Below are positions 20,482-25,635 of a stretch of 43,649 nt of DNA, piece after piece. The notes below the pieces were generated by a model that ran no database searches, was not told the DNA's origin, and was given only the letters and a program-made list of their open reading frames with translations. Origin of the DNA: Spirochaetota bacterium (lineage in GTDB: Bacteria; Spirochaetota; UBA4802; JAFGDQ01); contig JAXHTS010000051.1 in assembly GCA_034190085.1 (NCBI GenBank), forward strand, positions 1-43,649. The letters are read 5' to 3'. The position numbers and the translations under genes were made by a program. Position 1 is the first letter of the stretch. Every line of letters starts with the position of its first letter.

Positions 20482-20967
20482 CTAATGGATTACATTTCTT
20501 CTGTTATTTCCAAAATTAAAGGAATGGCAAGCTGCAATAGCGAGAGCATCGGCTGCATCATCAGGCTCTGGTAACTCCTCTATTCTGAATATCTTCATAA
20601 CCATCTTTTGCATCTGCTCTTTTGTGGCGCGGCCATAACCTGTTAATGCATGTTTTATTTGAGATGGGCTGTATTCTGAGTATTCTATCCCCAAAAGTCT
20701 GGTCGTAAGCATAATTACTCCAATGCATTTGGCAACATCCATGGCAGTCTTAGTATTTTTTGAAAAATATAACCTTTCAACCGCCATGCAATCAGGTTGC
20801 AATCTCTCTATTATTTCAATGATGTCAACATGTATTCTAAGCAGTCTTTGAGCAATATCATCATCTTTACTGGTTTGAATAGCTCCATATTCAATGATCC
20901 TCAGGTTGTGTTCAATTATTGCCCAACCGAGTGTGCCAAATCCTGGATCAATACCCAATATTCTCAC
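20482..20967 (-). CDS. ruvC: Holliday junction resolvase RuvC
   Basis: 161 residues. The four acidic catalytic residues are present: Asp7 (GIDPGFGTLGWA), Glu64 (AVERLYF), Asp137 and Asp140 (PDDAADALAIA). It cuts symmetric strands of Holliday junctions. Its ATG overlaps the TGA of yebC by four bases, so both are read from one mRNA, the common yebC-ruvC-ruvA arrangement. Confidence 0.97.
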   Translation of the reverse strand: MRILGIDPGFGTLGWAIIEHNLRIIEYGAIQTSKDDDIAQRLLRIHVDIIEIIERLQPDCMAVERLYFSKNTKTAMDVAKCIGVIMLTTRLLGIEYSEYSPSQIKHALTGYGRATKEQMQKMVMKIFRIEELPEPDDAADALAIAACHSFNFGNNRRNVIH

Positions 20968-21719
20968 TGTTCCTCGCTTATTTTTGTCATGATTTCATCC
21001 GGGATATCATAATTTGAATAGATATGCTGCACATCTTCAAGGTCTTCAAGCTCGCCGATTAGCTTAAGGCATTGTGAAGCCTTTTTTTCATCCAATTTTG
21101 TTAGGCTTTGCGGTATATGAGTGATCTCACTAAGTGTTGTCTTGATGTTATTCTCGTGTACAATTTCATATATATCATTGTAATTATCTGGGGGTGTGAT
21201 TATAATAATATTATCATCCTCTCTTTTTATATCGTCCACTCCGTGATCTATGAGTAGTTCCATAATCTCATCTTCAGTGGAATCCTCGCCATCAATAATT
21301 ATTAATCCCTTTCTTTCAAAAATGTAGGATACGCATCCCGTTTCACCGAGATTCCCTCCACCCTTTGAGAACAGAGACCTGATGTTTGGCGTTGTTCTAT
21401 TCCTGTTATCGGTTAAACAATCAATCATTATGGCAACCCCGCCGGGACCATATCCCTCATACCTTATCTCCTGGTAATTTGTGCCCTCAACGCCTCCGAT
21501 TCCCTTTTTAATCGCTCTCTCAATATTATCGGAAGGCATATTATTCTCCCTTGCCTTTGCAACAGCAGTTCGGAGTCTTGGATTGGAGTTTATATCCTCA
21601 CCTCCGTTTCTGGCAGAAACGGTTATTTCGCGTGATAATTTTGAAAATATTGCGCCCCTCTTGGAATCGATGGCGCCCTTCTTCCTCTTAATTGTAGACC
21701 ATTTGGAGTGTCCTGACAT
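20964..21719 (-). CDS. yebC: YebC/PmpR-family protein
   Basis: 251 residues. The start MSGHSKWSTIKRKKGAIDSKR is the family signature, followed by NMPSDNIERAIKKG and YEGYGPGGVAIMIDCLTDNRNRT. YebC proteins were long treated as transcription regulators; recent work places bacterial YebC2-type members at the ribosome, relieving stalling, so the molecular role here is open. Directly upstream of ruvC with a four-base overlap. Confidence 0.95.
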   Translation of the reverse strand: MSGHSKWSTIKRKKGAIDSKRGAIFSKLSREITVSARNGGEDINSNPRLRTAVAKARENNMPSDNIERAIKKGIGGVEGTNYQEIRYEGYGPGGVAIMIDCLTDNRNRTTPNIRSLFSKGGGNLGETGCVSYIFERKGLIIIDGEDSTEDEIMELLIDHGVDDIKREDDNIIIITPPDNYNDIYEIVHENNIKTTLSEITHIPQSLTKLDEKKASQCLKLIGELEDLEDVQHIYSNYDIPDEIMTKISEEQ

Positions 21720-21824: not shown

Positions 21825-23111
21825 CTAATAACCTCTCTTTATTTTCAACTGTATTTTTTTTATCCTTTCCCTTGCAGCTTCAGAATTATAATTCAATGAG
21901 ACAGCATCCCTGTAAAACTTAATTGCATCATTCAAATTTCCAACATTTTCATAAATTCGCGCTAAGTTCCATCTAACCTTGCCTGCATTCAGCTTTTTAT
22001 ACTGGTATTCAATTTCCCTATTAGCCAATTCAATCTCCCCCTTTTTTTCTCTGAGGAGATTATATTCTTCATATTTATCATTTTCCCTTGTCTTGATTAT
22101 TAAGGATTTTATATTATTTATTCGATTTTCAATATTTTGAGCCTCCTTTGCACTCTGTTCCATCTTAGATTTAATCATATCCTGATATTTAATGGTTTCA
22201 AGATAATATCCGGCAGCCTCTTCAAACTCCAACTCCTTCATGTAGATATTACCCTTATATTCATTGGCTTTTGATCTTCGAAAAACGCTGTTTTCTGGTA
22301 GGAATTCTAATGATCTATTAAAGCATTCCATAGCAAGGTTAAAATCGCCAATCCTTTTATAGGCAAGATACCCTAGGGCAAAGAATATATATCCGTCGTC
22401 ATCCTTTTGGGTAATGTATTTCTTATAATACTTTACTGTTTCAAGATACCTTCCAATATCCTCATTTAGATTCGCTATCATCAAATAGAGTTTCAGATCA
22501 ATTGCTGTATCGCCCATTGATTGGATATATCTTTCTAAATGATAGATAGCCTTTTTATTCTCACCTGTTCCATATAGAGCCTTCCCAAGTTCAAGGGAAT
22601 AATTAAAATTGCTAGGTTTTAATGTATATGCCGTTTCAAGTGAATCCAAATATGCTTTATAGTGATTATTGTTACGATAAACCTGTGAAATCTCGTAAAA
22701 TATGACATCATCCTTATTAAACTCAATGGACTTAAACCTTAGAGCCTGATAATAGTGATTCAATGCAGTGCTATATTCTGAGAGCTTGGAGTGACACCTT
22801 GCTGAGTATAGATGAAGTTGGAAGAGCCTATCGTTTTTCTCAATAAAGAACATCTTTGCCCTTCTTGTTCTAAAAAGCTCATTTAGATCCATGCCTTCTT
22901 CTATCTTCTTTATTGCAATAACGTCCAGTGGTACTCTCTTGTCATGAACCCTTTTGCTGTATATAAGATTTATTTCACCTTTCAGTATTTGAAGAGCTTT
23001 TTTATACTCACTATTATTATAATATGTAATATAGTCATTCTTATCTGATTGCTGGGCAAATAGGGCTGATAGGGATATGAATAATATAATGGTTATTATT
23101 GGGATTTTCAT
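21825..23111 (-). CDS. Secreted TPR-repeat protein
   Basis: 428 residues with a clear signal peptide (MKIPIITIILFISLSALFA, probable cut before QQ). At least six TPR-like helical repeats follow, for example LHLYSARCHSKLSEYSTALN, YFFALGYLAYKRIGDFNLAM-type segments near the middle and RWNLARIYENVGNLNDAIKF near the C-terminus. Residues about 320-375 form a charged helix, possibly coiled coil. A periplasmic scaffold or envelope-assembly role is likely, but no specific function can be named. It sits between yebC and pth with gaps on both sides. Confidence 0.7.
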   Translation of the reverse strand: MKIPIITIILFISLSALFAQQSDKNDYITYYNNSEYKKALQILKGEINLIYSKRVHDKRVPLDVIAIKKIEEGMDLNELFRTRRAKMFFIEKNDRLFQLHLYSARCHSKLSEYSTALNHYYQALRFKSIEFNKDDVIFYEISQVYRNNNHYKAYLDSLETAYTLKPSNFNYSLELGKALYGTGENKKAIYHLERYIQSMGDTAIDLKLYLMIANLNEDIGRYLETVKYYKKYITQKDDDGYIFFALGYLAYKRIGDFNLAMECFNRSLEFLPENSVFRRSKANEYKGNIYMKELEFEEAAGYYLETIKYQDMIKSKMEQSAKEAQNIENRINNIKSLIIKTRENDKYEEYNLLREKKGEIELANREIEYQYKKLNAGKVRWNLARIYENVGNLNDAIKFYRDAVSLNYNSEAARERIKKIQLKIKRGY

Positions 23112-23509: not shown

Positions 23510-24124
23510 TTATGTAGGAATCCGAATCTTCCTTACCTTTCTTTTGATTATCTTTGGCGCTCCTTCAGGATTATACTTGTTTTGAACAGTTTCAACATTA
23601 TACTTAATTAACATTTTCACAGCTTTTTCAGCCTTATTCAAAACGTCAATCAATATAAGATTTTCCTCATCAGTAAAATCCTTCATTAAATACTCCTCTA
23701 AACTCATACCCTCTGGGGGGTAGCCTACACCAACCCTAACCTTGACAAACCTATCAGACTTTAAGGCCTTTGTCATAGAGTCAATGCTTGGATGACTAAA
23801 AGCAGATAGAATATAATCTATACGTAGTTCACCTAAGGGAAGTGATGTATCTTCAATGATTGAGATAATATCTCGGACATTTATTCTGACAAAGGATGCA
23901 ATGTATAAGACTGATTCTCCTATAAGATTAATAAATGTCTGGGGTTTTAGTAAAATTACTTCACAATTATTGATATCACCTCTTCCGATTAGGGATTTCT
24001 TCTTTCGTACTTTAACTTCAACATTTTCGTTATTCGCGATTATATCTATTACTTTAAACCCAATATTTTGTCTGTTATTAAGATATTTTTCCCCAGGATT
24101 CCCACAACCAATTATTAGTTTCAA
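23510..24124 (-). CDS. pth: Peptidyl-tRNA hydrolase homologue with degenerate active site
   Basis: 204 residues, normal length for Pth, and in the conserved slot after rplY. Kept: GCGNPGEKYLNN with the family Asn, and LLKPQTFINLIGESV. Lost: the catalytic His of the TRHN motif is Gln19 here (NRQNIGF). The usual DDLDLP loop reads EDTSLPLGELR, and the GGHNGLKS block reads SAFSHPSIDSM. Known Pth chemistry depends on that His and a nearby Asp, so hydrolysis of peptidyl-tRNA is doubtful. It could be a pseudoenzyme that still binds tRNA, or a very divergent active form. The frame is intact, so this is not a simple pseudogene. Confidence 0.85.
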   Translation of the reverse strand: MKLIIGCGNPGEKYLNNRQNIGFKVIDIIANNENVEVKVRKKKSLIGRGDINNCEVILLKPQTFINLIGESVLYIASFVRINVRDIISIIEDTSLPLGELRIDYILSAFSHPSIDSMTKALKSDRFVKVRVGVGYPPEGMSLEEYLMKDFTDEENLILIDVLNKAEKAVKMLIKYNVETVQNKYNPEGAPKIIKRKVRKIRIPT

Positions 24125-24176
24125 ATATCTATTCTCCCTCCCTTTATCAAAATATTATAAAGAAAGAAAAATCTTA

Positions 24177-24854
24177 TTACTCTTTTGACTCCTGATCTTT
24201 GTCTCCCTTCTTTGGCTCTTCTACCACCGCATCTTCTTCTCCCGCTGCTTTAACCTCTTCTTCCACTTCTTCCACAACTTCTTCCTCAATCTTATGAGGA
24301 GCAAGAAGTGTAACAATAACCCTATCACAAGCTTGTAGAAATTGTATAGTGTCCGGAAATTGGATATCCTCAATATGTATAGAGTCGCCTATTTGGAGAT
24401 CTGTTACATCAATTGGAATTTTTTCAGGCATGTCCACTGGCAGACATTCAACTTCTAGTTCCCGTTCCAATAACTCAAGTATTCCACCCATTTTGACGCC
24501 TGCTGCTGTACCATTAATTTCTATTGGCACCATTGTGTGAATCTTCTCTCCCTCTTTGACCTTGTAAAAGTCAAGATGTAACAGATTGTCAGTAATGGGA
24601 TCTCGTTGATAATCCTTTATAAAGACCTGATGAGTAGAATCCTCTTCCTTATTTATTATGTTCAGATCTATAAGAACGCTTTCTGAGATTCTTTTTTTAA
24701 ATAGCTTTAGAAAATCCTTTTTCTGCACCTTGATAGCCTCAGATATGCCGTGTGAATATATCACAGCAGGAATGTACCCTATATCCCTCAACCTGTGACA
24801 GGCATTCTTGCCCCTCTCTGTTCTTATCTCTACATTTAAACTATAGTCCTGCAT
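24177..24854 (-). CDS. rplY: 50S ribosomal protein L25, general-stress (CTC/TL5) form
   Basis: 225 residues. The N-terminal L25 domain (about 1-95) binds 5S rRNA: RTERGKNACHRLRDIGYIPAV, FIKDYQRDPITDNLLHLDFY. A C-terminal CTC beta domain follows (VPIEINGTAAGVKMGGILEL, LEVECLPVDMPEKIPIDV). The tail from about residue 188 is highly acidic (EEEVVEEVEEEVKAAGEE). The order glmU-ctc-pth is widely conserved in bacteria, and all three run in the same direction here. Confidence 0.96.
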   Translation of the reverse strand: MQDYSLNVEIRTERGKNACHRLRDIGYIPAVIYSHGISEAIKVQKKDFLKLFKKRISESVLIDLNIINKEEDSTHQVFIKDYQRDPITDNLLHLDFYKVKEGEKIHTMVPIEINGTAAGVKMGGILELLERELEVECLPVDMPEKIPIDVTDLQIGDSIHIEDIQFPDTIQFLQACDRVIVTLLAPHKIEEEVVEEVEEEVKAAGEEDAVVEEPKKGDKDQESKE

Positions 24855-24912: not shown

Positions 24913-25635
24913 TTATGCCATCTTTAAATAGTTCCCAAGACTTGAGAGTTCTTCCTGTGAATTTATTCCACTTCCTTCCATGAAGTCATTGAGAAGAATC
25001 CTTCCAATTGAATATCCCGATGACTTTATATAATCAAAAACATCTGGAAGATAATACTCACCCTGTGCATTATCTGTATTTATTGTCTTTAATCCTGCAA
25101 AAAGAAGATCTTTATCAAATGCATAGGTCCCGGAATTTACTTCTTTTATTCGCTTCTCCTCCAGGTTTGCATCCCTCTCTTCAATTATTTTATTAACATT
25201 ACCCCTTTCATCCGTAATAATCCTTCCATAACCTCTAGGATTGTCCATTATCATCGTAAGCACAGTTGCCATTATTCCATCTTTTTGAAATTCTTCCTGT
25301 AAACGCTTAAAGGTTGAGGGCTTAATTAATGGAACATCGCCACAAGCAAGTACAATCGGTCCATGATAATCATTTAAGGAACTCTCAACCTGCATCACAG
25401 CATGCCCTGTCCCGAGTTGATCATGCTGCCAAACATATTCAACTGAATTGCCTAACGTCTCAATTACCATTTTCCCCTTGTAGCCCACAACTGTTATTAT
25501 ATCATTGATTCCTGAATTACGTAAACTCTCAATTACATAGAGTATTAGTGGTTTTCCACATAGGGGGTGAAGCACCTTCGGGAGATCTGATTTCATTCGA
25601 ACTCCCTTACCAGCGGCTAGTACTATAGCTTTTAT
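24913..25635 (-). CDS. glmU: GlmU-like UDP-GlcNAc pyrophosphorylase domain (no acetyltransferase), AUA start
   Basis: 240 residues. The nucleotide-binding loop AIVLAAGKGVRMKSDLPK is followed by VLHPLCGKPL, a GTGHAVM block and the metal-binding ACGDVPL, all as in GlmU N-terminal domains. The left-handed beta-helix acetyltransferase half is absent, so it can only make the UDP-sugar (from GlcNAc-1-P or a similar sugar phosphate). The first ATG (25596) would cut off the loop. In frame upstream there is no ATG, GTG or TTG before a stop; AAGGAG (25643-25648) lies exactly seven bases ahead of an ATA codon at 25633-25635, which I take as the start. Directly follows tRNA-Gln. Confidence 0.85.
   Translation of the reverse strand: MKAIVLAAGKGVRMKSDLPKVLHPLCGKPLILYVIESLRNSGINDIITVVGYKGKMVIETLGNSVEYVWQHDQLGTGHAVMQVESSLNDYHGPIVLACGDVPLIKPSTFKRLQEEFQKDGIMATVLTMIMDNPRGYGRIITDERGNVNKIIEERDANLEEKRIKEVNSGTYAFDKDLLFAGLKTINTDNAQGEYYLPDVFDYIKSSGYSIGRILLNDFMEGSGINSQEELSSLGNYLKMA

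Follow-up and report, generated by a model that had tools for sequence, protein, structure and literature searches.

The window, a 43,649-nt stretch of DNA from a Spirochaetota bacterium, carries a gene of the peptidyl-tRNA hydrolase (Pth) family on its minus strand, directly downstream of the gene for ribosomal protein L25. We refer to this gene as pth* and to its product, together with its relatives described below, as Pth*. The features of the locus are as follows.

20964-21719, minus strand: yebC, downstream of pth* (PF01709, PF20772)
21825-23111, minus strand: gene for a TPR protein, downstream of pth* (profile search)
23510-24124, minus strand: pth*, putative Pth-fold pseudoenzyme of 204 aa with a TTG start (frame, PF01195/TIGR00447 matches, AlphaFold2, Foldseek)
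23513-23560, minus strand: basic C-terminal tail of pth*, APKIIKRKVRKIRIPT, of a type seen only in the window's order
23852-23854, minus strand: codon GAA, Glu91 of pth*, at the site of the catalytic Asp93 (sequence and alignment)
23993-24007, minus strand: basic block RKKKS, codons 40-44 of pth* (alignment)
24068-24070, minus strand: codon CAA, Gln19 of pth*, at the site of the catalytic His20 (sequence and alignment)
24134-24143, minus strand: purine-rich ribosome-binding site AGGGAGGGAG, 5' of the pth* TTG (sequence)
24177-24854, minus strand: rplY / ctc, ribosomal protein L25 of the TL5 type, directly upstream of pth* (PF01386, PF14693)
24913-25596, minus strand: glmU-like nucleotidyltransferase gene, upstream of rplY (PF00483)

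The gene order glmU-rplY-pth-TPR-yebC-ruvC is the canonical one, as a sequence-only reading of this DNA had stated. The glmU-like gene encodes the nucleotidyltransferase domain alone, with no hexapeptide acetyltransferase part. No defence-system match was found. The pth* frame is full length and uninterrupted, and its translation matches all 183 positions of PF01195 (157 bits) as well as the NCBIfam equivalog TIGR00447 'pth' (130 bits, cut-off 100). In an AlphaFold2 model the Pth fold was retained (pLDDT 87.8, pTM 0.84), and the top Foldseek matches of this model were all Pth, at target TM scores of up to 0.94, with CRS2 within the top 20 PDB matches. Pth* also shares with Pth1 the NPG loop, the KPQTF loop and the GxG strand.

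Catalytic residues of Pth*

Catalysis by Pth relies on a strictly conserved His, Asn and Asp (PMC11994314, PMC4929431). Pth* was aligned to E. coli Pth, whose numbering is used here. The window protein is changed at H20 (Q), M67 (I), D93 (E), K105 (D), N114 (P) and G115 (S), and retains N10, N21, N68, D94, H113 and R133. It combines the full-length fold of an active Pth1 with Gln in place of the catalytic His, with Glu93 beside the retained Asn68, and with Pro where an Asn or a basic residue would stand at 114. The loss of the catalytic site within an intact frame, which the sequence-only reading had put forward, was borne out. That reading had also described the GGHNGLK block as SAFSHPSID; N114 and G115 are indeed replaced, but the His of GGHNG (H113) is still present.

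A profile search with the dead sequences, as we call those of the Pth* type, identified this type in 81 of 393 genomes of the phylum, in 13 family codes. Scores in the 81 genomes ran from 254 to 332 bits, clearly apart from the remaining full-length matches, none of which exceeded 227 bits. His20 is absent from all 74 distinct dead sequences, which have Q, S, R, A, K, L or C instead, whereas it is present in all 192 active-type, or live, Pths. D93 was found in 29 of 74 dead versus 192 of 192 live sequences and N68 in 41 of 74 versus 192 of 192. In the dead clade, position 114 is P, A, I, E, L, D, V or M, and K105 is reversed or lost (D, E or A). D94, which is Asp92 of the window protein and follows directly on Glu91, is invariant, and H113 is mostly retained. 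Among the His20-bearing Pths, 25 of 192 have R, K or H at position 114, and the T. thermophilus enzyme has an Arg there (Arg103; PMC11994314). We rejected the N114 change as proof of inactivity because of these basic residues in live-type Pths. Judged by the alignments, the diagnostic loss is that of His20, with drift at D93 and N68. Of the motif changes first taken as signs of inactivity, the one at His20 stands as diagnostic and the one at N114 does not by itself. Active-type Pths with the same replacements were found neither for His20 nor for D93; at N114 other residues are tolerated, but not Pro.

Chance, decay and sequencing error were rejected as explanations, since the state recurs in 74 distinct sequences and dN/dS is low (see below). 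These results suggest that Pth* is no longer able to hydrolyse peptidyl-tRNA. If so, automatic annotation, which places these proteins above the TIGR00447 cut-off, mislabels them as active hydrolases. A hydrolase with an altered mechanism or another substrate would be in keeping with the retention of H113 and D94 and with selection on the whole fold. The seven residues at position 20 and the variation at 68, 93 and 114 are unlike a reshaped active site, however, and no clade-specific invariant His was found in the dead-clade alignment, so that we regard such an enzyme as improbable.

A second Pth and the ancestry of the dead copies

The sequence-only reading had predicted a need for a further hydrolase in the cell. 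A second Pth is indeed encoded on another contig of the same genome (G000:C15:13123-13638), with N10, H20, N68, D93, H113 and N114 all present. The genome also encodes an ArfB-like protein of 144 aa with a GGQ motif and a basic tail, plus two long release-factor-type proteins. No PTH2 was found in it, and PTH2 was rejected as the replacement hydrolase on this ground. From their sequences, the second Pth and the ArfB-like protein are predicted to cover peptidyl-tRNA hydrolysis in the window's genome.

The pairing of a live and a dead copy is the rule. All 46 genomes of the window's order have at least one Pth and 39 have two, one live and one dead, many of the genomes compared being drafts; the pair also occurs in nearly all dead-clade genomes outside the order. 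A further 22 partner genes all have H20, N68, D93, H113 and N114. Only a live copy was found in five genomes of the order (G001, G011, G014, G023 and G024), and a dead copy with no live copy found was seen in G030, G042 and G120, the last being 92% complete. A weak second Pth match in G120 proved to be a chance match in another gene's frame. One genome (G148, family f41; L309, L310) carries, beside one live Pth, two dead copies with R20 in one and C20 in the other. Within the window's order, the dead genes of all 39 genomes begin with TTG (24122-24124 in the window), compared with ATG for 42 of 44 live partners. Beyond this order ATG is the usual start of the dead gene as well. The weak TTG codon, conserved in this way, may determine or regulate how much of the protein is made.

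Carriers of Pth* include the window's order, with uncultured spirochaete MAGs (RBG_13_51_14 and HGW-Spirochaetae-5 among them), as well as MAGs named Leptospiraceae and Turneriella parva DSM 21527, whose genome is closed (plasmid NC_018021). The pair is therefore testable in a cultivated type strain. The genus Leptospira itself seems to lie outside the 393-genome set, as judged by the LipL32 marker, which was met in scattered single genomes only. Proteins of the LipL32 family (PF12103, >200 bits; L325-L328), a family usually associated with Leptospira, were seen in seven such spirochaete genomes, two of them in the window's order.

At 71 of the 74 loci checked, rplY lies at most 600 nt upstream of the dead copy; in two f34 genomes Pth* is apart from rplY. 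Among the intact partners examined, none is adjacent to rplY. In single-copy families (such as f10, f20, f28, f13 and f39), it is the live Pth that sits at rplY. In an IQ-TREE phylogeny of 73 rows, the dead copies form a single clade (99/96) nested within the rplY-linked Pths of single-copy spirochaetes (100/99), with the changed copies of f23, f17 and f31 as its sisters (97/85). The intact partners are placed apart from it, with Pths of treponemes, E. coli and delta-proteobacteria, although their exact place is weakly supported; at least one partner, that of G089, falls elsewhere in the tree. With this support, transfer and an old duplication are both possible as the source of the partners. 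The nested position and rplY linkage of the dead clade, together with the unlinked partners, indicate that the native Pth died in place, with the other lineage hydrolysing peptidyl-tRNA. Treponemes have the other Pth lineage only and are one step beyond, the native copy being lost.

Selection and shifted constraint

The dead copies are more closely guarded than the live ones. Identity was higher between dead than between live copies in 1314 of 1326 genome pairs. Within the window's order (all 666 pairs), identity was 74% for the dead versus 52% for the live copies, and versus 50% for the neighbouring L25, which the dead copy exceeded in 666 of 666 pairs. Nei-Gojobori dN/dS ratios for close pairs, several of them with saturated dS, were 0.008-0.07 for dead and 0.09-0.23 for live copies. 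The suggestion of a new role as such, for which the sequence-only reading had named tRNA binding and stress sensing as candidates, gains support from this selection, which is stronger than that on the active copy. If Pth* were a remnant of the native enzyme in decay and bound to be lost, as happened in the treponemes with their single other lineage, these ratios would be very hard to explain, as would the intact frames in dozens of genomes and 13 families and the clade-specific invariant residues; we give this explanation next to no chance. Collectively, these results make it very likely that Pth* is a conserved pseudoenzyme whose hydrolase job has been taken over.

Column conservation is higher in the dead than in the live copies in every segment but the gate helix (138-152) and the catalytic loop (93-116); as the live sequences span more diversity, the contrast among segments weighs more than the absolute values. 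Conservation rises most at the end of helix a1, in strand b2 (KKKKS) and in the long C-terminal helix. Residues that differ from Pth1 as new invariants or near-invariants of the dead clade are K24, N31, N32, K40-K43, S44, L73, Y74, I75, A76, L79, K122, I159, N163, E166 and V180. The window protein deviates from these at R40 and V79. In the basic block, K41-K43 and S44 are invariant and residue 40 is Lys in 99% of the clade. The window protein shares with the clade the absence of His20, this block, the NN pair at 31-32 and the upstream rplY. The alignments show a shift of constraint, away from the gate helix and catalytic loop and towards helices a1 and a2, strand b2 and the C-terminal helices; the newly constrained surface is described here as sequence segments rather than as a mapped 3D patch.

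Possible roles of Pth*

Slow evolution, a shed active site and a gain of invariant basic and polar residues are best read as the marks of a binding protein. Our preferred explanation as a whole, to which we give a probability of roughly 0.6, is that Pth* is an ancient Pth pseudoenzyme kept for a non-catalytic binding role, probably linked to RNA or the ribosome. A second-lineage Pth in the genome would have freed the native, rplY-linked Pth from peptidyl-tRNA hydrolysis; the freed copy would then have lost His20 and other catalytic residues but stayed within the L25 operon, its product now binding without catalysis. Through its newly constrained segments, it may act on RNA or the ribosome, with rRNA, tRNA or a pre-50S partner co-produced with L25 as candidate targets. 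Such a role is suggested by the placement of pth* within the L25 operon, by the KKKKS block and by the C-terminal tail, which averages +7 in the window's order, although for an RNA or ribosome partner as such we would put the chances slightly below even. K105 and R133 form the tRNA 5'-phosphate clamp of E. coli Pth. With K105 lost, half of this clamp is gone, which makes ordinary peptidyl-tRNA binding less likely.

L25 itself is universal, including in the treponemes, which have it without Pth*. This indicates that L25 has no need of Pth*, and the idea of a joint loss of the two in treponemes failed for the same reason. The L25 beside Pth* ends in an acidic stretch (-6; 24177-24300 in the window), opposite in charge to the tail of Pth*. 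Families without Pth* also have acidic RplY tails, and we set the pairing of the two tails aside as a weak lead only.

The main rival is that Pth* regulates the active Pth, as its partner or as a decoy, binding the enzyme or its uncleaved substrate and tuning peptidyl-tRNA turnover. The two proteins nearly always co-occur, and Pth* keeps N10, N21, H113 and R133 of the substrate cleft, and in many members N68. The partners change fast while Pth* hardly does, at least one of them (that of G089) falls elsewhere in the tree, K105 is gone, and the catalytic loop and gate helix are the parts of Pth* least constrained relative to live Pths. We consider this rival unlikely.

Among known proteins, the nearest in kind to Pth* is chloroplast CRS2 (1ryb, 1rym), a Pth-fold protein reported to lack Pth activity and to have taken on a new role (PMC9275481). 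A job for Pth* in RNA splicing or folding in the style of CRS2 would draw on this likeness of fold. Unlike Pth*, CRS2 keeps His20, Asp93, His113 and Asn114, and it works with CRM-domain partners, whereas the CRM domain (PF01985) is absent from the window's genome. Maize CRS2 falls outside the dead clade in the tree, on a long branch. A CRS2/CAF-like complex was rejected for want of a CRM protein, and a CRS2-like role in general seems highly improbable. A literature search on duplicated or inactive bacterial Pth returned nothing relevant, which is not proof of absence.

If the preferred reading of a binding pseudoenzyme holds, an essential enzyme of textbook translation has given up its own locus to a descendant that is catalytically dead and yet under stricter selection than the working enzyme. 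This would point to a so far undescribed bacterial role for the Pth fold. Pth* would then be a natural separation-of-function mutant for asking about Pth roles beyond hydrolysis. More tentatively, Pth in general may have a second, non-hydrolytic function tied to the L25 operon, such that the rplY-linked copy, once relieved, turns into a specialised factor of translation or the ribosome, under more constraint than the enzyme. The spirochaetes would show stages of this: a Brachyspira-like tandem with catalytic residues kept and the tRNA clamp lost, the f23 and f17 copies with His20 kept, and the Pth* clade, all dead.

The changed rplY-adjacent Pths of f15, f23, f17 and f31 resemble Pth* in being mostly the rplY-side copy of a two-Pth genome, altered relative to the other copy. 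They differ in that the f15, f23 (L174-L176) and f17 (L173) copies keep His20. The f31 copy (G085; L152) carries R20; its genome, 80% complete, yielded no partner. Whereas the dead clade has f23, f17 and f31 as its sisters, the f15 copies (Brachyspira-like; L015-L032, L119, L120) stem from a separate duplication, a tandem Pth pair after rplY. The rplY-adjacent copy of this pair keeps His20 and has I or V at K105, G or A at R133, and an insert before HNG.
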